Both the position numbers and the translations under genes were made by a program. This document shows, in pieces, positions 298-13,149 of a DNA stretch of 64,000 bases. The DNA is from Myxococcales bacterium. Its GTDB lineage: Bacteria; Myxococcota_A; Polyangia; Polyangiales; Polyangiaceae. Under the pieces are notes generated by a model. It saw nothing but the letters and a program-made list of their open reading frames with translations, ran no database searches and was not told the DNA's origin. The DNA lies in assembly GCA_005777185.1 (NCBI GenBank), contig SXNL01000328.1, forward strand, positions 1-64,000, read 5' to 3'. Numbering within the stretch: position 1 is the stretch's first letter; every line of letters starts with the position of its first letter.

Positions 298-1515
298 CTA
301 GGCGTGGCGCCGTCGCGCGTCGCCACGCGACAGGTGCTGCACCGCCTCGCCGAGGCCGTCGAGCGTCATGTGGAACATCGGGTACACCTTGCCGATGGCC
401 TCGCAGGTGCCGCCTCGCCAGTACGAGGGTGGATCCGGGTTGAGCCACGCCGACTTGGTGAACCGGTCGTGGATCGTCGTGAGCCACGCGAGGCCCGTCG
501 ACGCCTCGCGCGTCCCGGCTGCGCCGCTCGCGTAGTACTCCCAGTCGCCCGCGCCGAGGAGCTCCGCGGGGTGCATGGCGGCGTCGCCGACGACGACGAG
601 CTTGAACTCGGGCGTGCACGCGTCGAGGACCTCGTGCACGGGGGTAGCCTCCTGGAAGCGCTCGGACTCGTAGAGGCGCCCGTAGATGCAGTTGTGGAAG
701 TAATACGTCTTCAGCGTGCGGATGTTCGACGCCTTCTTCGCGGCCGAGAACAAGCGTGACACGAGGTGCGCGTGCGGGTCCATCGAGCCGCCCACGTCCA
801 TGAGGAGCAGCACCTTCACGTTCGACCGGCGCGGCGGCCGCATCACGATCTCGAGCTCGCCCGCGTTCTTCCCGGTCTTCTCGATCGTCGCGTCGAGATC
901 GAGCTCCTCCTCGGCGCCCTCGCGCTGGAACTTGCGGAGCTTGCGGAGGGCGACCTCGATCTGCCGCACGTCGAGCACGACGTCGGATCGATACGGCCGG
1001 TAACGGCGAGCGTCCGCGATCCCCATCGCGCTACGGCCACCGCCCCTGGCGCCCACGCGGAGGCCGCTCGGGTGGACGCCGCGCTGGCCGAACGGGCTCG
1101 TCCCGCCCGTGCCGATCCAGCGGTTGCCCCCGTCGTGGCGCTCCTTCTGCTCGCGCATGCGCTCCTCGAACAGGCGCCGAAGCTCCTCCATGTCGAGCGA
1201 CTCGAGCGCGGCGCGATCCTCGGGGGAGAGCTCGAGCTGGTTCCTGGGATCGTCCAGCCACTCGGCGAGCTCGTCGAGCATCTCGAGCTTCACACGCTCG
1301 ATGCCGCGGAAGTGGGCTGAAAACGCCTCGTCGAAGGCGTCCAGATCGCTCTCCTTGTGGACGCAGAGCGCGCGCGCCACGTGGTAGAACCCCGTGAGCG
1401 AGCTCTCGTGGAGGCCTGTGCCGAGCGCCGTCGCGAGCGCGATCGCCTCCTGCGCGCCCACCTTGATCTTGCGCGCGCGGAGCTCGTAGAGGAACGGGAC
1501 GAACGAGGCGCTCAT
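298..1515 (-). CDS. VWA-domain protein, CoxE-like family (405 aa)
   Basis: This is a cytoplasmic-looking protein with an N-terminal helical region and a C-terminal von Willebrand A domain starting near residue 233. The MIDAS loop reads [13 protein letters not shown] (D240, G242, S244). It is a DxGxS variant of the usual DxSxS, so metal binding may be altered, although I believe this form also occurs in COG3825-type VWA proteins. Such proteins usually work with MoxR-type AAA ATPases, but none is in this window. The start at 1515 was chosen over an ATG 21 nt upstream because the family N-terminus begins at [12 protein letters not shown]. It is the last gene of a leftward three-gene operon and overlaps the transglutaminase gene by 4 nt. 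The exact role is unknown. Confidence 0.8.
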
Positions 1516-3200
1516 GGCGAGACCCCCGCACCGCACCGCGTATCGCCGCGGGTGCGCGCGACGATCTCGTACGCGCCGAGCGTCATGGACGAGGGAAGCA
1601 CGATCGACCCCTCGTACGCGCCCTTGTCGTCGGTGGCAAGCGCGCCGACGGAGACCTCGCTACCCCTTCCAGGGCGAAGCGCGATGTCGACCATCACGTG
1701 CGCACAGGGCTCGCGCTCGGCGGTGACCTCGCCCTTCACGTGCAGCGGCATGCCGCGGCGGACCTGTCCGTCGACGAGGACGACCGTGAGCTTCGCGCGC
1801 GGGCGATCGTCGGCCTGTCCGTCGTCGGCGTCCCGCTGTGGACCGCGTGGAGAGGGTCTGTCGCCCCTCCCTTCGGGCGAGGCGTTCGGGCCGCCCGACG
1901 ACATGACCCCGCCGGAGGAGGTCGGACCGGCGGACGCCACCGCCGACGGCGACGCCAGCCCGCCGCTGCCGTTCGCCGTGTCCCCCGCCTTCTCGCGCTG
2001 CTCCTGGCGGGTGCGGTCGGCCATCTCGGATCCGCGCGTCGAGCCCGACGGCCACCGGAACGGATCCGCGGGCGGCTGGTACGGCGTGTTCGTCGACTCC
2101 GCGTCGCGCAGCGTTCGCCCTGCGCCGCCCAGGTCGATGCGCCGCCACGCGTGCCCGTCGAAGACCTCGACCCATGCGTGCGCCTCGTTCGTGATCACGC
2201 GCGTGGGGATGCCGAGCGACATCGCCGTGACGAAGAAGGCGAACGACCGGTGCCGGCACACTCCCTTCTTCGAGAGCGCGAGATCGAGGTAGATGTCGCG
2301 GCTCGGCGGCGGCCCCTCGTCGGCGTCGGCGAAGCCGCGGAAGTAGGCGACCAGCTTCGCGACGGCCTCGCGCGGCGGATCCCGGCGCGACACGCCGATC
2401 TGCGTCTTCACCTGCTCCGCGGCGCGGAGCGCGTTCGGGGGGAGCGTGACCGGCAACACGCCGAGCTCGGCCCACGAGGGGCTGCCGAAGTCTCCGCCGA
2501 ACGCGGCGCGCGGGATGGCGATCTCCATGACGACGCGGACGCGCGAGGACTGCTCGCCCATGACGAACCAGTTGTCGGCGCCGTCCTTCACGAACCGCAC
2601 CGTGACGTCGGCGCTGCCCACGCCCGCGCGCGCCCGGAGGATGCGCGCACCCGGGCCCACCGACGGGATCCGTACGGGCTTCAGGGCCGCGAGATCGACG
2701 ACCATGTCACCGTAGAACGACTCCTCTCCGTCGCCGGGGCGCGTCCCGGCAACCGGGAGGATGTGGACCCCCTTGTCGCGCACCGAGAGCGTGTACGCCG
2801 CGTCCACGGCGTCGTACGCGTTGAGGCGCTTGAAGGGCGCGGTGGAGGGCGTGAACGGCTCGTCGTAGGGGAGCGTGTCGGGGCGCCGCGTGTCGCGGTC
2901 GGGCTGGAAGGTCGCGTCGGGGGCCGCCGACCGATCGGGCACCGCGTCGCGCTTGGCGCCGGCGGGCGGGATGGCACGCCGCGGATCCGGCGCGGGCACG
3001 GTGCCGCTCCGCGTGTCGATCGCCGCAGGGAGGTCGCCGTCGAGGGAGAGCGAGAGGGCGATGTCCTCGCGGGGATCCGGCGGGATGGGCTCGTGCAGCA
3101 CGAACGTGTTCCTCGCGCGCGCGGGCGGACCGGCGAACAGGAGCGCGAGGGCGGGGGCGAGGAGCAGCGCGCGCGCGCCCGATCGCACCCGACCGCCCAT
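1512..3200 (-). CDS. Exported transglutaminase-like protein with C-terminal Ig-like domain (562 aa)
   Basis: An N-terminal signal peptide (residues 1-30, ending near PARAR) is followed by a long N-terminal region and a transglutaminase-like core at about 290-370. The Cys-His-Asp triad is visible as C315 (KKGVCRHRS), H341 (NEAHAWVEV) and D356 (RRIDLGG). A Ser/Gly/Pro-rich linker (about 400-465) leads to a C-terminal beta-sandwich-like domain (about 468-550). Family members act as transglutaminases or as peptidases. Location in the periplasm or on the surface is inferred from the signal. The start at 3200 follows the lipoprotein stop by 2 nt; upstream in-frame codons are low-complexity and were not used. 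Its VWA and YXWGXW neighbours suggest an envelope function. Confidence 0.8.
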   Translation of the reverse strand: MGGRVRSGARALLLAPALALLFAGPPARARNTFVLHEPIPPDPREDIALSLSLDGDLPAAIDTRSGTVPAPDPRRAIPPAGAKRDAVPDRSAAPDATFQPDRDTRRPDTLPYDEPFTPSTAPFKRLNAYDAVDAAYTLSVRDKGVHILPVAGTRPGDGEESFYGDMVVDLAALKPVRIPSVGPGARILRARAGVGSADVTVRFVKDGADNWFVMGEQSSRVRVVMEIAIPRAAFGGDFGSPSWAELGVLPVTLPPNALRAAEQVKTQIGVSRRDPPREAVAKLVAYFRGFADADEGPPPSRDIYLDLALSKKGVCRHRSFAFFVTAMSLGIPTRVITNEAHAWVEVFDGHAWRRIDLGGAGRTLRDAESTNTPYQPPADPFRWPSGSTRGSEMADRTRQEQREKAGDTANGSGGLASPSAVASAGPTSSGGVMSSGGPNASPEGRGDRPSPRGPQRDADDGQADDRPRAKLTVVLVDGQVRRGMPLHVKGEVTAEREPCAHVMVDIALRPGRGSEVSVGALATDDKGAYEGSIVLPSSMTLGAYEIVARTRGDTRCGAGVSP

Positions 3201-3791: not shown

Positions 3792-4973
3792 ATGGGCGTG
3801 AATTTCCGCGGAATTCCCCTGCTGGGGCTCGGACTCGGGCTCGTTTTCGGGCTCGGGGGATGCGGGTCGTCCACGGCGCCCTCGGCCGCCCAGGCGTCGG
3901 CGGCGGATGGCGGGTCGACCTCCGTGGCCAGGATCGCGACCCCGACCGGCGATCCCCTGACGTGGGCGGTCGATGCCGTCGGCCCGTTCAACGTGGGCCA
4001 CCGCGTCCTCGACGTGACCTACACGCCGCCCGGAGGCCTGCCGTCGCGCACCATCCCGGTCGACCTCTTCTACCCGACGCTCGACGCCGACGGGGAGCAC
4101 CCGCGGTACAAGAAGCTCTTCGCCGACAAGGACGTGCTCGAGAACGCCTCCGTCGCGGCGCCCATCGACCCCAAGGGGTACCCGGTCCACGTGTACTCGC
4201 ACGGCTCGTCGGGGTTCGGCGGCACCTCGAGCGACATGGCGCACTGGTTCGTGTCGCACGGATGGGTGTATATTGCACCCAACCACGTCGGCAACACGCT
4301 CGGGGATCCGGAGGGGAAGCGGCCGCTCACGATGTCCGTTCTCCGCTCGACCGACGTGAGCGCCGCGCTCGACGCGGTCGAGAAGCTCACGGCGCCCGAC
4401 CTCCTCGCGGGGAAGCTGCGCACGAAGCGGGTGCTCCTCTCGGGCCACAGCTTCGGCGCGTTCACGGTGTGGATCTCATCGGGGGCGACCGTGGACGGCG
4501 CCGTGCTGCAGGCGCGCTGCAACGCGGGCGACTTCACGGCGTGCCGACCGGAGGACATCGCCGCCCTCGTGAAGGGCCTCGCCGATCCGCGCGTCGTTGC
4601 GACGATCCCGATGGCGGGCGGAGCCGCCGAGTTCATCACCGACTACGACGCGCCGAAGAAGCCGGTGCTCCTCATGAGCGGGAGCGACGACGTCTCGGGC
4701 GGCCCGATCTTCGACAAGGTCCAGACGCTGGACCTCACCTGGATCGAGTTCACGGGCGGGTGCCATCAGCTCTTCGCGCTCGGGGGCTGCGCGAACTTCG
4801 ACGAGAAGCTCGGCTGGAAGCTCACGAACACGTGGGCGCTCGCGTGGGGCCGGCGGTTCGTGCTCGGAGACGGCGGGGACGCCGTGATGAAGATCGCCAC
4901 CGGCGCCACGTCCCTCTCCGACAAGATCAAGCTGAAGAAGAAGGGCACGTTGAGCCCGCCAGGAGGGCCATGA
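3792..4973 (+). CDS. Alpha/beta-hydrolase lipoprotein, PAF-acetylhydrolase-like (393 aa)
   Basis: The signal ends in the lipobox LGGC (Cys24), so the protein is probably anchored to a membrane. The body is an alpha/beta hydrolase related to platelet-activating-factor acetylhydrolase/dienelactone hydrolase types: an oxyanion region VYSHGSSGFGG (near 134-144), the nucleophile elbow LLSGHSFGAF with S220, a candidate acid in the LLMSGSDD segment, and a late His in TGGCHQLFALGG. The substrate is unknown; an ester is likely. It is the first gene of a four-gene operon and overlaps the next gene (ATGA). The longer open frame upstream has poor coding character and was not used. Confidence 0.8.
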   Translation: MGVNFRGIPLLGLGLGLVFGLGGCGSSTAPSAAQASAADGGSTSVARIATPTGDPLTWAVDAVGPFNVGHRVLDVTYTPPGGLPSRTIPVDLFYPTLDADGEHPRYKKLFADKDVLENASVAAPIDPKGYPVHVYSHGSSGFGGTSSDMAHWFVSHGWVYIAPNHVGNTLGDPEGKRPLTMSVLRSTDVSAALDAVEKLTAPDLLAGKLRTKRVLLSGHSFGAFTVWISSGATVDGAVLQARCNAGDFTACRPEDIAALVKGLADPRVVATIPMAGGAAEFITDYDAPKKPVLLMSGSDDVSGGPIFDKVQTLDLTWIEFTGGCHQLFALGGCANFDEKLGWKLTNTWALAWGRRFVLGDGGDAVMKIATGATSLSDKIKLKKKGTLSPPGGP

Positions 4974-6634
4974 TGAAGTCGTCCGGGCAAGCACCCAGAG
5001 GCGCACGCGCGCTGATCGCCACGACACTCTTCGTGGCGTCCGTCGCCTCCACCGCGTGCAAGAGCCACGAGTCCTCGGCGCCCGCGCCGGTGCCAACAGG
5101 CCCCGTGGGCAGCGCGCTCGCCTCCCCCACGGGCGCGCAACGGCTCACGCGCTCGCAGTACGCGGCGTCGATCCGCGACATCTTCGGCCCGGAGGTGGTG
5201 GTCCCGAGCGCGATCGAGCCGGACGTGGCGACCGACGGGTTCGAGTCCGTCGGCGCGACGAACAGCACCGTCTCGGCGCGTGGCGTCGAGCAGTACGAGA
5301 TGGCGGGCCTCGCGATCGGGAACCAGATCGTCAACGACGAGAAGCTCCGCGGGCGCATCCTGAAGTGCAGGCCCGCCGCCTTCGACGACGCCGCGTGCGC
5401 GCGCGACGTCGTGTCGCTGGTCGGCGCGAAGGTCTTTCGCCGCCCGCTCACCGACGCGGAGACGAAGGCCCTCACCGACATCATCACCCTCACCGGCCGC
5501 TCGCTCGCGTCGTTCGAGAAGGGCCTGGCGTACGGGATCTCGCGGATGCTCCAGTCCCCGATGTTCCTGTACCGGCCCTCCGTGGGTGAGCCCGATCCGG
5601 AGCACGCTGGACAGAAGCGCTACACGGGGTTCGAGCTCGCGACGCGCCTCTCGTACTTCCTGTGGGACAGCACGCCGGACGACGCGCTCCTGGACGCGGC
5701 GAGGACCGGCAAGCTTGGCGGCTACGAGGGCCTCGACGCGGAGGTGACGCGCATGCTCGCGTCCCCCAGGGCGCGGGACGGGCTGCGCGCGTTCGTACGG
5801 CAGTGGCTCCGCCTGGGCGAGCTCGACCTGATCCAGAAGGACTCGAAGCTCTTCACGACGTACACAGCGGAGCTCGGCCCGATGGCGCGCGAGGAGACGC
5901 TGCGCGTGTTCGAGGATCTCGTCTTCGAGCGGGACGCCGACGTGCGGGAGGTCATGCTCACCCGGCGCACGTTCGTGACGCCGAAGCTCGCCTCGATGTA
6001 CCAGGTGATGGCGCCGTCGGCGACGGGGTTCGCGCCGATCGAGCTGCCTGCGGACGGCAAGCGGAGGGGGCTCCTCGGGCAGGTGTCGTTCCTCGCGCTC
6101 TACGCGCACCCGACCTCGTCGTCGGCCACGCTCCGCGGGAAGTTCGTGCGCGAGAAGCTCCTCTGCGTCACGATCCCGCCGCCGCCGGTGAACCTCAACA
6201 CCGCGCTCCCGGAGCCGACGGACACCGCGAAGACGCTGCGCGAGCGCGTGAAGATCCACTTCACCAACCCGGACTGCGCGGGGTGCCACTCGATGACCGA
6301 TCCCATCGGGCTCGGCCTCGAGAACTTCGACGGCATCGGGCGCGAGCGGACGAAGGAGAACGGCGTCGTCATCGACCCCACGGGCAAGCTGGACGGCGTC
6401 GACTTCGACGGCCCCCTCACGCTCGCGCAGGCCATCCACGACCACCCCCGCTTCGCGCCGTGCATCACGCGGAGGGCGTACCAGTTCGCCACGGGCACCA
6501 CACCCCAGCCCCTCGAGGAGCCGACCTTGACGGCCCTGAACGAGCGCTTCGTCGCGGCCGGGTACCGCCTGAAGCCCCTCCTCCGGGCCATCGCAACGAG
6601 CCCCGCCTTCCGCACCAAGGGAGCTCCGCACTGA
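4970..6634 (+). CDS. DUF1587/1595/1592/1588/1585 protein with c-type heme motif (554 aa)
   Basis: The order of recognisable modules is DUF1587 (about 57-110), DUF1595 (about 130-200), DUF1592 (about 215-345), DUF1588 (about 360-460) and DUF1585 (C-terminus). C436-AGC-H440 is a covalent heme attachment motif followed by the typical DPIGLGLENFD. The N-terminus is a signal peptide ending in STAC, a weak lipobox. The family is abundant in Planctomycetes and Myxococcota and is generally paired with DUF1552, as here. Its biochemical function is not established; the heme implies redox activity outside the cytoplasm. The start ATG lies in an ATGA overlap preceded by AGGAGGG. Confidence 0.9.
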   Translation: MMKSSGQAPRGARALIATTLFVASVASTACKSHESSAPAPVPTGPVGSALASPTGAQRLTRSQYAASIRDIFGPEVVVPSAIEPDVATDGFESVGATNSTVSARGVEQYEMAGLAIGNQIVNDEKLRGRILKCRPAAFDDAACARDVVSLVGAKVFRRPLTDAETKALTDIITLTGRSLASFEKGLAYGISRMLQSPMFLYRPSVGEPDPEHAGQKRYTGFELATRLSYFLWDSTPDDALLDAARTGKLGGYEGLDAEVTRMLASPRARDGLRAFVRQWLRLGELDLIQKDSKLFTTYTAELGPMAREETLRVFEDLVFERDADVREVMLTRRTFVTPKLASMYQVMAPSATGFAPIELPADGKRRGLLGQVSFLALYAHPTSSSATLRGKFVREKLLCVTIPPPPVNLNTALPEPTDTAKTLRERVKIHFTNPDCAGCHSMTDPIGLGLENFDGIGRERTKENGVVIDPTGKLDGVDFDGPLTLAQAIHDHPRFAPCITRRAYQFATGTTPQPLEEPTLTALNERFVAAGYRLKPLLRAIATSPAFRTKGAPH

Positions 6635-6635
6635 C

Positions 6636-7955
6636 ATGAAGACCAAGATCCACCGGCGAACGCTGCTCCGCGGCCTCATCTCGGGTGCGGCCGTCACGAT
6701 CGGCCTGCCCTTCCTGGAGATCTTCGGCCACGAGAAGCGCGCCTCCGCCGCGCCCGACGGCCTTCCCAAGCGGTTCGGCATCTTCTTCTGGGGCAACGGG
6801 GTGCTCCCCGACCAGTGGGTCCCCGCGCAGACGGGTACGTCGTACGCGCTCTCGCCGACGCTGAAGATCCTGGAGCCGCACCAGGCCAAGATCTCCGTCG
6901 TGAGCAACATGAAGGTCCCCGGCGTGAACGCCGTCCCGCACTGGTCCGGACCGATCGGGCTCCTGTCCGGCGCCCCCCCGCTCGCGAGCGATCCCGGCGA
7001 GTTCTCGCGCCCGACCCTCGACCAGGTCATCGCCGAGGGGGTCGGCGCCGACTCGCGCTTCCGTTCGATCGAGGCCGCCGTACAGCCCGGCGCGATGGGG
7101 ATCTCGCGCAACGGCCCCAACAGCCAGAACCCCGCCGAGAGCTCTCCCGCCGCCCTCTTCGCGCGCGTGTTCGGCCCCGAGTTCGTGAAGCCCGGCTCGA
7201 CGCCCATCGCGAACCCGACCCTCGACGTTCGCAAGAGCATCCTCGACGCCGTCACCTCCGACGCGAGGGCGCTGCAGGGCGTCCTCGGCGCGACCGACAA
7301 GCAGCGGCTCGAGCAGCACCTCGACGGCGTGCGCGCCCTCGAGCGCCGCATCCAGAAGCTGAAGGAGACCCCGCCCAACCTCGCCGCGTGCAACGTCCCC
7401 ACGCCGCCCAAGCCCGACTACCCTGCGAACGCGGGCCGGCCGCCGATGAGCGAGATCTCCCGCGCGATGGTCGACATCCTGGCCATGACGCTCGCCTGCG
7501 ATCAGACGCGCGTGTTCAGCCTCTGGTTCACGCACCCGGTGAACAACACGCTGTTCGCGGGGGCGCCGGCCGGCCACCACCAGCTCACGCACGACGAGCC
7601 GGGCGCGCAGCCCGAGGTGGGCAAGATCCTGGGGCAGATCATGACCGAGCTCGCGTACCTGCTCTCGGCGTTCGATGCCGTGAAGGAGGGGGACGGCACG
7701 CTGCTCGATCACTGCGCGATCCTCTGTACGAGCGACGTCAACTACGGGCGCCAGCACACGCTGGACGACTTCCCCATCGTGCTCGCGGGCTCGTGCAATG
7801 GCGCGCTCAAGACAGGCCAGCACTACCGCGCCCCGAGCCCCGACAACACGAGCAAGATCGGCCTCTCGCTGGCGCGCGCGATGGGGATGACGATGGAGTC
7901 CTTCGGCGTCGGGGACGCGAAGGCCACGACCGGCCTGTCGGCGATCGAGGTGTGA
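6636..7955 (+). CDS. Tat-exported DUF1552 protein (439 aa)
   Basis: The N-terminus contains HRRTLLRG followed by a hydrophobic stretch (GLISGAAVTIGLPFLEIF), a twin-arginine signal consistent with export of a folded, possibly cofactor-bearing protein. The remainder matches DUF1552: FFWGNGVLPDQW near the start, the central REISRAMVDIL-like helix (here SEISRAMVDILAMTLACDQTR), and the closing CAILCTSDVNYGRQH and VLAGSCNGALK segments. The gene starts one nt after the stop of the DUF1592 gene. The two families are nearly always adjacent in genomes and are believed to act together in an unknown extracytoplasmic process. Confidence 0.9.
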   Translation: MKTKIHRRTLLRGLISGAAVTIGLPFLEIFGHEKRASAAPDGLPKRFGIFFWGNGVLPDQWVPAQTGTSYALSPTLKILEPHQAKISVVSNMKVPGVNAVPHWSGPIGLLSGAPPLASDPGEFSRPTLDQVIAEGVGADSRFRSIEAAVQPGAMGISRNGPNSQNPAESSPAALFARVFGPEFVKPGSTPIANPTLDVRKSILDAVTSDARALQGVLGATDKQRLEQHLDGVRALERRIQKLKETPPNLAACNVPTPPKPDYPANAGRPPMSEISRAMVDILAMTLACDQTRVFSLWFTHPVNNTLFAGAPAGHHQLTHDEPGAQPEVGKILGQIMTELAYLLSAFDAVKEGDGTLLDHCAILCTSDVNYGRQHTLDDFPIVLAGSCNGALKTGQHYRAPSPDNTSKIGLSLARAMGMTMESFGVGDAKATTGLSAIEV

Positions 7956-7956
7956 G

Positions 7957-8820
7957 ATGAGAGGCGCTCTCCTTCCCTCCGCGATCCTCCTCGCCGCCCT
8001 CCCTTCGTGCTCCTCGTCGTCCTCGGCGACGCCCGACCCGACGTGCGAGCCCGGGCCGAACAAGACCTGGGTCATCAGCGCGCTCTCCTTCACACGCGAG
8101 AACCCCGTGGGCGTCTCTCCCGGTTTCGACCTGGACCACTCGGTCTCGCGCACGCCCGAGGAGCTGTCGTGCGGCAAGCTCGATCTCACAGGCCCCGACG
8201 GCACGCCCGGCGTCGACAACCAGCTCGCGCGCGTCATCCCTCTCGTCGAGCAGCAGGTCGGCAACGCGATCGACGGCATCATCCAGGGCGCGATCAACGA
8301 CGGTCGCCTCACCATCGCGCTCGATCTCCTCAACGTGAACCACGCCGTCGACGACCGCTGCGTCGACATCGAGGTCAAGCTCGGGCAGGGCAAGCCCTCG
8401 CTCGGCACGGACGGGACGCTCGAGGCCTACCAGACGTACGACGCACGGAAGGAAGGCCAGCTCCTCAGCCCCGGCAAGGGGGGCAAGTTCGAGAAGGGCG
8501 TGTTCACGATCGGCCCGTTTCCGCTGCGCATCCCGATCGCGATCTTCGACGTGAGCTTCACGATCTTCATCCGTGACGCCCTGATCCGCTTCAAGCTCGA
8601 CGACGACGGCAACGCGGAGGGGCTCCTCGGCGGGGGCATCTCCATCGAGGAGGTCGCCGACGGCGTGAAGAACGGCGCGGGCGTCGCGCCGCTCATCCCG
8701 CAGATCAAGGCGGTGGGGACCCTGTACGCGGACATGGGATACGATCCGAACATCGGGAAGTGCTCGCTGGTGTCTGCCGCGCTCGCGTTCAAGGCGCGCC
8801 CGGCGTTCATCCGGCGTTGA
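7957..8820 (+). CDS. Lipoprotein of unknown function (287 aa)
   Basis: The N-terminus MRGALLPSAILLAALPSCSS is a lipoprotein signal (Cys18). The mature part has no domain I recognise. It alternates short beta-type segments with conserved-looking Asp and Gly (for example TFIRDALIRFKLDDDGNAEG) and has a Cys pair (Cys at CEPGPNK and DRCVDIEV) that could form a disulfide. It starts one nt after the DUF1552 stop and is the last gene of the operon, so it probably supports the same envelope system. It is followed by a hairpin and then a convergent gene. Confidence 0.75.
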   Translation: MRGALLPSAILLAALPSCSSSSSATPDPTCEPGPNKTWVISALSFTRENPVGVSPGFDLDHSVSRTPEELSCGKLDLTGPDGTPGVDNQLARVIPLVEQQVGNAIDGIIQGAINDGRLTIALDLLNVNHAVDDRCVDIEVKLGQGKPSLGTDGTLEAYQTYDARKEGQLLSPGKGGKFEKGVFTIGPFPLRIPIAIFDVSFTIFIRDALIRFKLDDDGNAEGLLGGGISIEEVADGVKNGAGVAPLIPQIKAVGTLYADMGYDPNIGKCSLVSAALAFKARPAFIRR

Positions 8821-10105: not shown

Positions 10106-10112
10106 CGCGCCC

Positions 10113-10958
10113 GTGGAGGAAGCGACGCGACTGCCCGATCTGGAGGAGCCCGGGTACGACTTCGGCGGCGCCACGTTCGATCTGCAGGATCCCGACGACC
10201 GCGAGGTGGTGCGCTTCATCCTGTCCCAGGCGCTCTACGGCGAGGCGACGGGCGTGTACTGCGGGCGCTCGCTCTACGCGGCGAGGTCCCTGGAGGCCGC
10301 GAGATTCTACGTGCGGCAGGCGAAGCAGGAGCTCGCGCACCTCGAGCTCTTCGCCGACGTGTTCCGCAGCCTGGACATGAAGCCGGACCGCGCGCACTGG
10401 GTGATCCGCGCGCTCTCCGCCCACAACGACTACTACCCGCTCAAGGTGCTGATGGAACACGCCATCGGAGAGGGGATGGTGCTCGACATCTTCAAGGACC
10501 TCCTGCTCCAGACGCTGCCGGACGCCGACCCTCGCATCCCCGCGGTCAAGAAGAAGCTCCGCGTGGTGTGCCGCGAGGAGATGGAGCACGTCGCCTGGGG
10601 CGAGAAGGAGACGGTGCGCCTCCTCGCCGAGCGGCCCTGGCTGCGCGTACCGTTCTACGGGCTCCTGGAGATCCAGATGGCCGCGCTGCCCGCGCTCGTC
10701 CGGGCGTTCCGCTCGCGCGCCGCGGACCACCCCGTGCTGTCGCACGTGGAGGGCTTCCTGGCGCACGTCCGATCGCGCGTGTACGCCCAGGGCCGCCGCC
10801 TGGGCTTCGTGCCCGAGTCGAGGCCCGGGCTCCTCGCCCGCGCCTGGGCGATGCTCGTGGGCGTCCTCCTCCTCGCGCGCAGCCAGGTCGCGCGCAGCCG
10901 CTCCCAGCTCCCTGCGATCTACCTCGACGAGCTGGGATTCGGGCGAGACGGGAAGTAG
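10113..10958 (+). CDS. Ferritin-like diiron protein with C-terminal hydrophobic helix (281 aa)
   Basis: A four-helix ferritin-like domain carries a first-helix Glu (GEAT, E44), the first ExxH in KQELAHLELF (E73, H76), a third-helix Glu in MEHAIGEG, and a second ExxH in EEMEHVAWGE (E156 region, H159). This is the E/ExxH/E/ExxH ligand set of diiron carboxylate proteins. Near the C-terminus a hydrophobic segment (AWAMLVGVLLLA) may associate with the membrane. The reaction is unknown; oxidation, hydroxylation or iron handling are all possible. It appears monocistronic. Its stop lies 4 nt from the stop of the convergent M4 peptidase gene. If the ATG at 10101 were used it would be 4 residues longer. 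Confidence 0.7.
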   Translation: MEEATRLPDLEEPGYDFGGATFDLQDPDDREVVRFILSQALYGEATGVYCGRSLYAARSLEAARFYVRQAKQELAHLELFADVFRSLDMKPDRAHWVIRALSAHNDYYPLKVLMEHAIGEGMVLDIFKDLLLQTLPDADPRIPAVKKKLRVVCREEMEHVAWGEKETVRLLAERPWLRVPFYGLLEIQMAALPALVRAFRSRAADHPVLSHVEGFLAHVRSRVYAQGRRLGFVPESRPGLLARAWAMLVGVLLLARSQVARSRSQLPAIYLDELGFGRDGK

Positions 10959-10962
10959 CCCG

Positions 10963-13149
10963 TCACTCGAGCAGGTCCTTGCAGACGAACATCCCCGTCG
11001 TCTCGCTCATCGTCGCACGGTTGTTCAGGCGGTCGCCCGTCTGGTCGCTCACCCTCGCGCACGCGAAGCCGGTCGGACATTGAAGGTGCCCGCGCGGAGC
11101 TCGCTTTCCACCTGCGCACAGCGTACCCGCGTACACGGGCTCGGCCCCCGCGGGCGTGGGCTCGTTCTCCTCGCAGTACCAGCCGTCCGCGAGCCCCGCG
11201 CAGTCGATCCGCCCGCCGGTCTGGCAGGTGACGCCGCCGTAGCGTGCGGCGTCGGCGTTCGTGAGCACGCCGACGGCGACCCATGCGCACGCCACGGCCG
11301 AGACGTCGATCGCGCGGCTCCTCGCGAAGGCGACCTGCGCGAGCGCGAACGTCCGGTAGGGAGTCGTGGGCCCGATGCTGGGGACGGCGTCCAGCCACAG
11401 CCGGATGGCCCCCTCCCAGCCGAGCCCGCGCGAGACGCGGACGCGGGACCTGTCGTTGATGCCGCCGAACGACATCAGGTACCACGCGTTGTCGCCGATT
11501 CCAGCGTTCGCGTGGACGCAACCCCAGTCGTTGGTGGGGAGAGGGATCGACTCGCAGAGCACCCTGCGCATGCCGCCGAGCATGCGAACGTCTCGCGTGA
11601 GCGAACGGCTCGTGTGGTCCTTGACCCGATCGCCCCCCGGGGTCTTCCGGCTCGAGGGGTGGACCATGCTTCGCACCCCCGTGTGGCTCCTGAGCAGCAC
11701 CTCTCCGATGACGTCGCGGCGCCGGCTCGGGTACCGCGCCAGCTTCGCCGACATACCGATGGCGTCGGACACCGCCTCGTTCAAGCCGCCGGCCTCGCCC
11801 ACCTGTATCGGCTGGAGGAGGGAGGCGATCCGCTGCGGCGTGCGCGCGGCGCCCGCGAGGAGCGCGCGGATCACGTACCCGTGCGTGAGCTCGTGGCCGA
11901 CGACGTCGAGCGCGATGGACGTAGGGAACGTGAGCGAGCCGCCGTCCCCGTACTTCATCACGTCGGCGTACGGATCGTAGCTCGCGTCCTCGGGGAGGTC
12001 GGGACGATGGACGATGCTCACGATCGGCCCGTCGAGCGGTGGCCTGTTCGCGTAGCGACGGAAGAAGGCGTCCATGAAGCTCGCGTTGTAGTGCGCGTCG
12101 ACGCCCGCGCCGGGGCCCGGGAGCAGGACGCCCGAGATCCTGCGATCGTCCCACTCGGACTTGCTGCGACTACCAACCTCGCGCGTCCTCCGCAGGCCCG
12201 GCAGCTCGCCCGGACCGTCGTCGGCGAGCGTGCGGACCTCGCTCGACGCTCCGGTCCGCTCGCGGAGGAGGTAGGACATCTCGTCGGGCGTGCCCTTCAG
12301 ACGCGTGGCGACGTCGATCGGGAGCGTGAGCCCGCGATACCCCTCCGGGAACGGGAGGTAGTTCCCGATCGACAGCGCATCCACGCGCTCCGCGTCGAGG
12401 CGCAGCTCGCCGCCGGCGATCGAGAAGAGCGAGCCATCCTCGGCGCTCACGGTGGCGATCCACGACGCGGGCCGGTCGTCGGTCGGGCGCAACAGCGCGA
12501 CGTACGCGAGCGCCGGGGCGCCGGACGGATCCGTCGTGGCGACGAGCGCGGGCTCGTGTGCGAGCTCGGCCTCGGTCGGGGGCGGAGCGACGTGCTCTCC
12601 GACCCTCGCGAGCACCGCCCTCTTGGCCTCCTCCGGGGAGAGTCTCGGCGACGGACCGACGGCGTCGAACGCGTCGTCGACGCTGGACGCGACGTGGACG
12701 ATGCGCCCCTCGGCGTCGAGGGTCATGCGCGCTCCCTTGCCGAGGACGGGGACGCCCGAGCCGAGGAGGTGCTGTTCCACATGGACGGTGCGCATCCCGT
12801 CGAGACCCGGCTCGACCCGCGGAGGCCCGGTGCGGTCGAGCGCGCGCGAGATCCCCATCGCGGCGCCGTGCACCGCGAGGAGATCGACCAGCGCGGCTGC
12901 GGTGCCCTCGTCGGAGCTCGCGACCGATCGCGTGGGCGAGAGGGGCAGCGCGAACTCGACGCGACCCGAGGGGCTACGTGACGCGGCGAACGGGGCGCCG
13001 TAGTGTTGCTCGAGGTCCTTCTCGAGCGGATCTTCCGGGAAACCCGCGGGGGCGGGCTCCTCGGCCTGGCAGCCCGAGGAGGCCGGGAGCACGGCGAGGA
13101 CGGTGACGAGGGCGGTGACGAGCGCGACGGGGGAGCGGTGGGCTTTCAT
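10963..13149 (-). CDS. M4 (thermolysin-family) metallopeptidase, probable lipoprotein (728 aa)
   Basis: A signal peptide with a lipobox-like end (SSGC27) is followed by an FTP/PepSY-type propeptide region (about 50-250) and the M4 catalytic domain. Zinc ligands and catalytic residues are visible: H419-E-L-T-H423, the second Glu in GGLNEAVSD (E458), and the transition-state His in HANAGIGDNAWYL (H546). A Cys-rich tail (about 640-728, CQTGG, DCAG, WYCEE, CPTGFAC, FVCKD) is appended and probably forms a disulfide-bonded module. It is an extracellular or surface zinc protease, and the propeptide suggests autocatalytic maturation. The gene is monocistronic and flanked by other secreted proteins. 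Confidence 0.9.
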   Translation of the reverse strand: MKAHRSPVALVTALVTVLAVLPASSGCQAEEPAPAGFPEDPLEKDLEQHYGAPFAASRSPSGRVEFALPLSPTRSVASSDEGTAAALVDLLAVHGAAMGISRALDRTGPPRVEPGLDGMRTVHVEQHLLGSGVPVLGKGARMTLDAEGRIVHVASSVDDAFDAVGPSPRLSPEEAKRAVLARVGEHVAPPPTEAELAHEPALVATTDPSGAPALAYVALLRPTDDRPASWIATVSAEDGSLFSIAGGELRLDAERVDALSIGNYLPFPEGYRGLTLPIDVATRLKGTPDEMSYLLRERTGASSEVRTLADDGPGELPGLRRTREVGSRSKSEWDDRRISGVLLPGPGAGVDAHYNASFMDAFFRRYANRPPLDGPIVSIVHRPDLPEDASYDPYADVMKYGDGGSLTFPTSIALDVVGHELTHGYVIRALLAGAARTPQRIASLLQPIQVGEAGGLNEAVSDAIGMSAKLARYPSRRRDVIGEVLLRSHTGVRSMVHPSSRKTPGGDRVKDHTSRSLTRDVRMLGGMRRVLCESIPLPTNDWGCVHANAGIGDNAWYLMSFGGINDRSRVRVSRGLGWEGAIRLWLDAVPSIGPTTPYRTFALAQVAFARSRAIDVSAVACAWVAVGVLTNADAARYGGVTCQTGGRIDCAGLADGWYCEENEPTPAGAEPVYAGTLCAGGKRAPRGHLQCPTGFACARVSDQTGDRLNNRATMSETTGMFVCKDLLE

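Follow-up and report, generated by a model that had tools for sequence, protein, structure and literature searches.

Four open reading frames lie on one strand at positions 3792-8820 (+) of the window, the whole 64,000-nucleotide stretch of a Myxococcales contig (SXNL01000328.1) that was analysed. They encode an alpha/beta hydrolase (P0001), a DUF1592 protein (P0002), a DUF1552 protein (P0003) and a further lipoprotein (P0004). Three of the products, P0001, P0002 and P0004, are predicted lipoproteins. The features are as follows.

3792..4973, + strand: P0001, alpha/beta hydrolase lipoprotein, PAF-AH / PETase / chlorophyllase-like (Pfam and profile matches)
3861-3863, + strand: lipobox-like cysteine C24 of P0001, nearly invariant in alignment A2
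4449..4451, + strand: putative nucleophile Ser220 (GHSFG); Ser in 41/41 linked and 58/58 unlinked distinct relatives
4689..4691, + strand: putative catalytic acid Asp300; Asp in 41/41 linked and 45/58 unlinked (Asn in 10)
4764..4766, + strand: putative catalytic His325 (GGCHQ); His in 41/41 linked and 57/58 unlinked
4970..6634, + strand: P0002, DUF1587-1595-1592-1588-1585 protein (PSD3, PSD5, PSD4, PSCyt3, PSD2), predicted c-type cytochrome lipoprotein (Pfam, alignment)
5057-5059, + strand: lipobox-like cysteine C30 of P0002, invariant in A4 (21 aligned rows)
6275..6289, + strand: candidate heme c motif CAGCH, residues 436-440 of P0002; C436, C439 and H440 invariant (21/21)
6636..7955, + strand: P0003, DUF1552 (HXXSHH) protein with a twin-arginine start and, in the model, an alkaline-phosphatase-superfamily fold (Pfam, alignment, model)
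6654..6659, + strand: twin arginine R7-R8 of P0003; both Arg in 21/21 cassette and 46/46 control DUF1552 proteins
7575..7592, + strand: HHQLTH, HXXSHH-type motif, residues 314-319 of P0003 (alignment)
7957..8820, + strand: P0004, lipoprotein, constant partner of the cassette DUF1592/DUF1552 subfamily (alignment, co-occurrence)
8008-8010, + strand: lipobox-like LPSC, C18 of P0004; the lipobox cysteine column of alignment A1 is nearly invariant, and the window's cysteine is three residues off it

The junction of P0001 and P0002 is an ATGA overlap, and each of the next two junctions is a 1-nt gap. P0002 starts with the ATG at 4970, or alternatively at 4973, and ends at 6634. The coupling of the four genes, described in an earlier note on this DNA, is thus legible in the sequence. 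The same note placed a heme site in the DUF1592 protein and a Tat signal on the DUF1552 protein; as motifs, both are present, as the single CAGCH of P0002 and the RR at residues 7-8 of P0003. Because the arrangement recurs at loci whose four proteins each average just 36-53% identity between loci (34 loci compared), it is non-random, and chance adjacency is rejected.

The four proteins

The Pfam family PAF-AH_p_II matches a short stretch of P0001 with 26.5 bits (cut-off 20). Among 19 hydrolase members compared with Pfam at E 0.01, all match Chlorophyllase, 16 PAF-AH and six PETase. In profile searches, PAF-AH (E 1.7e-6) and a PET hydrolase (4.9e-5) are matched weakly and over part of their length. 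P0001 resembles the PAF-acetylhydrolase, PET hydrolase/cutinase and chlorophyllase families in having SHG, GHSFG, Asp and His in the same order, but differs from them in several conserved cysteines and the lipobox. The putative triad S220/D300/H325 with GxSxG is complete in all 41 linked distinct hydrolase sequences.

P0002 matches DUF1592 with 130.4 bits, and DUF1588, 1595, 1585 and 1587 likewise score above cut-off. The domain order DUF1587-1595-1592-1588-1585, together with the CxxCH, is that of PSD/PSCyt3 proteins. The 21 alignment rows of the cassette subfamily contain 21 CxxCH motifs, and the C, C and H are found in 49/49 control DUF1592 proteins. The planctomycete-specific PSCyt3 and PSD2-PSD5 proteins (DUF1588, 1585, 1587, 1592, 1595) have the same domain set, the CxxCH and an adjoining DUF1552 gene. 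However, the cassette proteins form a distinct sequence subfamily, with the P0004 partner and often with the hydrolase. The cassette DUF1592 profile gives 734-846 bits on its own subfamily versus 200-471 on other pairs.

P0003 matches DUF1552 / HXXSHH (PF07586) with 207.4 bits (cut-off 30). H314, H315 and H319 of the motif are present in 21/21 cassette members; in this subfamily T replaces S at 318, and H319 is followed by D or N. Several invariant His and Asp residues may bind metal. Sequence searches of the PDB with DUF1592 and DUF1552 gave nothing convincing, and no functional assignment for DUF1552/DUF1592 or related names was found in the open-access literature. The predicted model of P0003, of moderate confidence (pLDDT 76.6), has the core fold of the alkaline phosphatase superfamily: Foldseek matches 1p49 at E 3.9e-5, and VIA aligns PafA with Z 16.1 and rmsd 3.9 over 275 residues, with ENPPs and sulfatases also matching. 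Sequence identity is about 10%, and the likeness to the alkaline phosphatase / sulfatase superfamily is one of overall fold in the model.

P0004 has no match in Pfam at E 1, none below 0.08 in a PDB sequence search, and none at E 1e-3 when its model is compared by Foldseek; 22 P0004 members have no Pfam match below E 0.08. VIA relates the model to beta-barrel proteins with a best Z of 8.1, perhaps just a common arrangement. A Cap15-, avidin- or OmpA-like barrel (Z 7-8) was not adopted, as such scores are common without a clear match. The P0004-like genes of loci L133 and L136 adjoin a SurE-like gene.

Distribution of the cassette

DUF1552 proteins occur in 117 of the 192 class genomes, often many per genome. 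The cassette type is present as one strong copy (>600 bits) in each of 22 of them. Exactly these 22 also carry P0004 (>300 bits), and 18 of them, but no other class genome, have the hydrolase (>480 bits; Fisher p 8e-22, kinship ignored), either beside the pair or elsewhere in the genome. Since the class genomes scanned had themselves supplied rows for profiles A1-A3, high scores there arise partly by construction; the informative part of the scans is absence from the remaining class genomes, and the phylum sample. In the latter, 377 genomes of which most are not in the profiles, 65 of the 67 genomes with the hydrolase also hold the cassette DUF1552 type. Conversely, 46 of 111 phylum genomes with this DUF1552 type have no hydrolase match at E 1e-90, and thus the hydrolase is not obligatory. 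One set of loci, mostly chosen for holding the hydrolase or P0004, was kept out of the fractions relied upon.

At 37 of 80 hydrolase loci the hydrolase is linked to the cassette, as the first gene in 27, the last in six and divergent in four; the corresponding numbers in the phylum sample are 22 first, eight last and five opposite. The three gene orders require at least four changes on the hydrolase tree. In the main clade, all 33 searched genomes whose hydrolase locus was not counted as linked have the DUF1552 type elsewhere (11 further unlinked loci outside this clade were left out of the count). P0004 adjoins the pair in 19 of 20 loci chosen for lack of a strong hydrolase match, and at six of these a diverged hydrolase nonetheless adjoins the cassette. 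Beyond the cassette, neighbours are poorly conserved: excluding the four families and antisense ORFs, the largest shared clusters occur in four and three of 26 loci. Neighbouring genes were predicted by a simple GC-codon caller, which is noisy.

No P0001-type hydrolase was found at 45 control DUF1592/DUF1552 loci. Weak P0001-like hydrolases several kilobases from other DUF1592 subfamilies (loci L109, L112) were not counted as linked. In a Pfam tally of control-pair neighbours (74 of 86 same-strand neighbours; 166 called), none of the 25 families listed, of 131, occurs in three or more members, and lone alpha/beta hydrolases there are possible.

The association of the cassette genes is nearly certain, and the cassette DUF1592/DUF1552 proteins are a distinct subfamily travelling with the P0004 family. 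Coupling to an alpha/beta hydrolase lipoprotein, claimed in the earlier note, holds in related genomes and is kept through changes of gene order. Its reach is narrower than the widespread pair: 18 of 22 class genomes of one subfamily but 0/45 controls, and so the hydrolase was rejected as a general partner. Since gene order varies and 46/111 phylum genomes lack a strong hydrolase match, the core is DUF1592, DUF1552 and P0004, with the hydrolase as a frequent fourth partner. P0004, previously listed as a second lipoprotein, is the more constant of the two (22/22 versus 18/22 class genomes).

Homologous trios (P0004-like, DUF1592, DUF1552) are carried by plasmids of Sphingobium and Novosphingobium. 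Their DUF1552 proteins are 36-37% identical to P0003 among the ten matches listed, their DUF1592 proteins 38-40% identical to P0002 among the top matches listed, and the P0004-like proteins match at E 9.9e-24 to 1.8e-29. The P0004-like gene, often longer, is upstream of DUF1592, whereas P0004 is the last of the four genes here. No P0001-type hydrolase was found in five sphingomonad stretches at E 1e-2. Genes of cytochrome c' and cytochrome b561 adjoin the trio at three of four sphingomonad loci.

Possible function

We tentatively favour, as quite possible though short of probable, an envelope-anchored redox module acting on the product of ester hydrolysis. In this model an ester would be cleaved outside the cytoplasm by the P0001 hydrolase. 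The product set free would then be acted on by the DUF1592 cytochrome lipoprotein together with the Tat-exported DUF1552 protein, while P0004, a beta-rich lipoprotein, would hold or present a ligand. The heme would pass electrons to cytochromes, soluble or in the membrane, and from there to the respiratory chain. By analogy, the cytochrome neighbours at the sphingomonad loci favour such a redox role, which the earlier note had suggested; this indirect support does not extend to Myxococcota, where 77 loci with cassette-type DUF1552 (some duplicates) have no homologues of the Sphingobium cytochromes c' and b561. Thus the sphingomonad electron route is not encoded beside the myxobacterial cassette. 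A more specific version is rather doubtful: DUF1552 would be an alkaline-phosphatase-fold protein turned metal oxidoreductase together with the DUF1592 cytochrome lipoprotein, with a substrate set by subfamily, the esterase and the ligand-holding P0004 here supplying a hydrophobic alcohol or phenol and the respiratory chain taking up the electrons. The fold could mean plain hydrolysis of phosphate or sulfate esters, which counts against a redox model.

The hydrolase and DUF1552 might be two esterases that jointly break down a lipid or polymer containing phospho- or sulfo-esters, with the DUF1592 heme structural or regulatory, although we consider this somewhat improbable. The hydrolase profile is nearest to PAF-acetylhydrolase, a phospholipase, and then to PET hydrolases and cutinases, and the DUF1552 model is nearest to phosphatases and sulfatases. 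The nearest relative, locus L091, has a PhoD-like phosphatase gene between the hydrolase and DUF1592, and the SurE-like gene at L133 and L136 points the same way. However, CxxCH is kept in all members examined, and cytochromes adjoin the sphingomonad trio at three of four loci. Moreover, phosphatases of the alkaline phosphatase superfamily have a metal-binding Asp at the end of strand 1, whereas strand 1 of the DUF1552 model ends in a conserved N-G. Functionally unrelated neighbours, adjacent through common ancestry, are very improbable. The strongly correlated distance matrices of the four proteins (Mantel r 0.83-0.90) are what co-inheritance alone predicts, but three gene orders with at least four changes, the DUF1552 type elsewhere in 33/33 genomes and the poorly conserved flanks argue for a functional link.

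The cassette is unlikely to supply electrons to some other extracellular oxidative enzyme while its esterase strips acyl decorations from the same polymer. The model for such a donor module is Cbp2D (X183/X132 domains), for which a donor role toward lytic polysaccharide monooxygenases (LPMOs) has been proposed. PMC8981238 states that the X183 cytochrome can reduce LPMOs and draws a DUF1587 domain in Cbp2D, and PMC12542752 describes Cbp2D as important for growth on insoluble cellulose. Cbp2D, TERTU_2913 and TERTU_3803 (X183, X132 domains) have an X132 region that bears a CxxCH, a motif shared with P0002. A segment at the start of X132 is printed as 'DUF1687' in PMC10916295; we suspect that DUF1587 is meant. 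However, these proteins are large and built of many domains, in some cases including carbohydrate-binding modules, whereas P0002 is a predicted lipoprotein of 554 aa with no carbohydrate-binding domain in Pfam at E 1. No conserved oxidase gene was seen next to the cassette at the 26 loci, and the Teredinibacter study deems its own results inconsistent with LPMO donation (PMC10916295).

Returning to the envelope redox module, the presence of the cassette in many myxobacteria suggests an unstudied route of attack on ester-containing compounds at the cell envelope. The subfamily is a small testable system, with a constant lipoprotein, a frequent esterase and cultured hosts (Polyangium, and Sphingobium for the trio). 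The esterase partner narrows the search for the substrate, and the cytochrome c' and b561 loci of sphingomonads suggest an electron route. If true, the metal-oxidoreductase reading of DUF1552 would define a new class of envelope oxidase.

Four genes of the window and their flanks

At 3792-8820 on the forward strand, the window (contig C312; the assembly measures 6.44 Mb and is 82% complete) contains four genes separated by overlaps or by one base. The hydrolase P0001 has SHG, GHSFG, Asp and His in the same order as PET hydrolases and related esterases. P0002 combines five DUF domains of planctomycete-specific cytochromes with a single CAGCH, and P0003 is a DUF1552 protein with an N-terminal twin-arginine. 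No Pfam family was matched by P0004. Lipobox-like cysteines occur in P0001, P0002 and P0004, and a crude pattern finds a lipobox in 16/19, 18/21 and 19/22 rows, respectively. The cysteine of P0002, absent from the earlier note, is invariant (21/21 rows). The neighbouring features are as follows.

298-1536, reverse strand: VWA domain protein, CoxE type (Pfam)
about 10111-10958, forward strand: frame with EExxH-like stretches
10963-13149, reverse strand: thermolysin-type M4 metallopeptidase (Pfam)

The second of these, in a 589-aa frame without a Pfam match, might encode a ferritin-like di-iron protein.

No paper describing the cassette was found in the open-access literature searched. PSCyt genes of Verrucomicrobia adjoin unknown families, and the same source calls their functions wholly unknown (PMC5615132). 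Proteins that resemble Cbp2D and carry X183 and X132 domains are the subject of three papers (PMC8981238, PMC10916295, PMC12542752); the authors of the Teredinibacter study are aware of no characterised X132 homologue (PMC10916295).

Association of the hydrolase with one DUF1592/DUF1552 subfamily

DUF1552 proteins were found in 117 of the 192 class genomes, frequently in many copies. Profiles made from cassette members divide the fetched loci into two separate populations: cassette loci (DUF1592 734-846 bits, DUF1552 633-741 bits) and other pairs (200-471 and 46-282 bits). Forty-five of the latter, mainly from the best-scoring DUF1552 matches of the class (L144-L146, L148, L150-L190), served as controls. 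None has a hydrolase or P0004 match in its flanks, which reach 2 kb or more in both directions in 39 loci and are cut by contig ends in the remainder. The same holds for L110, a second DUF1592/DUF1552 pair in the genome from which the window comes. Thus the hydrolase is the partner of one subfamily, and the coupling proposed in the earlier note, supported by profile scans for this subfamily, does not extend to the pair in general (0/45 control loci). Of the 80 best hydrolase loci, 37 adjoin a cassette.

Genome counts were made irrespective of adjacency, using profiles built with rows from the class genomes then scored. The subfamily DUF1552 profile has a single match above 600 bits in each of 22/192 class genomes, and P0004 exceeds 300 bits in the identical set. 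The hydrolase exceeds 480 bits in 18 genomes, all within these 22 (Fisher test on 18 and 0 vs 4 and 170, p 8e-22, uncorrected for kinship). It adjoins the cassette in fifteen of them and lies elsewhere in G147 and G181; in G005 the hydrolase and P0004 are on one contig end and the DUF1552 gene is at the end of another contig. Weak hydrolase matches (214-264 bits) were observed in seven further genomes, three inside the 22 (G150, G159, G164) and four outside (G033, G076, G132, G142). G048 (loci L132 and L140) has a weaker P0004 match of 212 bits. It contains five P0004-like matches and no DUF1552 match, so the P0004 family occurs without the pair too.

Among the 377 phylum genomes, the DUF1552 type is present in 111 (E 1e-150) and the hydrolase in 67 (E 1e-90), 65 of them with both; the exceptions are G354 and G363. 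The two genes lie within 8 kb in 35 pairs from 34 genomes, with the hydrolase upstream in 22, downstream in 8 and on the opposite strand in 5. At E 1e-90 the hydrolase is absent from 46 of the 111 genomes. Twenty of these genomes without a strong hydrolase match were sampled at a single locus each: P0004 stands beside the pair in 19 loci, and 6 loci have a diverged hydrolase next to the cassette (184-286 bits). The exception, L278, lacks both P0004 and the hydrolase; there an FAD-linked oxidase gene adjoins DUF1552 on the same strand (L278:4645-6102).

Gene order and evolution of the hydrolase loci

The hydrolase alignment was scanned against a collection of 84,980 species and yielded 111 relatives; the best 80 were examined. 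Their record names are Polyangium, Myxococcales, Myxococcota and Deltaproteobacteria, more loosely Proteobacteria or bacterium, and a few others; Polyangium fumosum DSM 14668 and three further Polyangium isolates are included. Two metagenome records (L218, CAMDBH010000072.1; L259, CAMAXZ010000003.1) are labelled Klebsiella pneumoniae, which looks wrong since their hydrolase or cassette genes are of myxobacterial type. In the 37 linked loci the hydrolase gene is first (27), last (6) or divergent (4), and 35 have a P0004 match, sometimes partial or broken. In G135 (L095:11911-12675 and L126:8275-9189) the P0004 beside the cassette is split in three frames, and an intact copy is on a different contig.

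Forty-three hydrolases were scored as not linked; linkage is undecided for some, as only 14 have at least 4.5 kb on both sides. One of them, on a 4.7-kb contig (L196), adjoins P0004. Cassette-type DUF1552 was searched for in 33 genomes, namely that of L102 and those of 32 of the 43 hydrolases; the other 11 lie outside the main tree clade. All 33 contain it, G195 and G198 as partial matches alone, and at least three (of L206, L209, L261) additionally have a linked locus. With L094 and L196 scored as linked by inference, the tree of the hydrolase requires at least 11 changes of the linked/unlinked state and at least 4 of gene order. The hydrolase of G187, from the window's family, groups with that of P. 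fumosum, which makes an uncultured member of the Polyangiaceae the most likely source of the window. Across 34 loci, the four proteins have correlated pairwise distances (r 0.83-0.90). With the four families and their antisense ORFs excluded, the largest shared neighbour clusters comprise 4 and 3 of 26 loci.

Each of the 41 distinct linked hydrolases retains Ser, Asp and His. Among 58 distinct unlinked ones, the position of the putative catalytic Asp is occupied by Asp in 45 and by Asn in 10, whereas Asn occurs there in 0/41 linked ones; the unlinked hydrolases with Asn include L102, L206, L209 and L217.

Plasmid relatives, structure models and possible function

Fifteen records of the plasmid collection contain DUF1552 relatives, and 14 of these records are named Sphingobium or Novosphingobium. 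Four DUF1592 loci (L291-L294) share the order P0004-like gene, DUF1592, DUF1552, with the first two immediately adjacent; in TomTYG65 (L295) the P0004-like gene is separate from the pair. Three loci contain P0004-like, DUF1592, DUF1552, cytochrome c' and cytochrome b561 genes.

L292:7766-14805: cytochrome c' gene upstream, b561 homologue downstream
L293:20946-26389: cytochrome c' and b561 as the next genes
L294:19924-24873: cytochrome c' and b561 as the next genes

Neither cytochrome was found within the fetched stretch of L291, nor, with the same queries, in any of 77 Myxococcota loci with cassette-type DUF1552. The plasmid loci give indirect support to a redox role; the negative result in Myxococcota speaks against it. 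L293 and L294 also have TonB receptor and AraC regulator genes close by, and glycosidase genes within about 20 kb; in L291 and L292 a glyoxalase-like gene follows DUF1552. Steroidal glycoalkaloid catabolism is known from tomato-root Sphingobium, in a report whose relevant sections do not mention the cassette genes (PMC10653915). It is our guess that the plasmid strains are those of that work.

The P0004 model (pLDDT 88.7, pTM 0.82) is beta-rich with four helices. It has no Foldseek match at E 1e-3, and its best VIA Z of 8.1 is at the level of common arrangements. The DUF1552 model is of moderate quality (pLDDT 76.6), and yet clearly belongs to the alkaline phosphatase superfamily: Foldseek matches 1p49 (E 3.9e-5), and VIA gives Z 14.8-16.1 to PafA, ENPPs, sulfatases and related enzymes among the 50 matches listed. 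Sequence searches alone do not reveal this membership. H102, D129, H314, H315, H319 and H374 of DUF1552 are conserved in 21/21 cassette rows and at least 45/46 controls. T318 and E321 are also present in 21/21 cassette rows; the controls have S (39/46) and mostly G, Q or M, respectively. All 21 cassette DUF1592 rows contain a single CxxCH, and upstream of it His430, invariant in the cassette and kept in 47/49 controls, might be a second axial ligand.

The analysis establishes the subfamily to which the cassette belongs, the co-occurrence and adjacency of its genes, the presence of predicted export signals and of CxxCH, and the fold of the DUF1552 model. It is possible that the cassette is purely hydrolytic, without redox turnover. 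The phosphatase fold of DUF1552 supports this, as do a PhoD-like phosphatase gene that separates the hydrolase from DUF1592 in the nearest relative (L091:7579-9834) and the SurE-like, short-chain dehydrogenase and aldehyde dehydrogenase genes that adjoin a P0004-like gene in L133:7434-12336 (Pfam). P0004-like lipoproteins of L134-L137 are in similar company (SurE of L136 by Pfam, the others by look). In the preferred reading, a redox-active envelope module in line with the complex suggested by the earlier note, the hydrolase would cleave an ester at the envelope, the released product would be bound or presented by P0004 and acted on by DUF1552 with a bound metal, and DUF1592 would hand the electrons onward.
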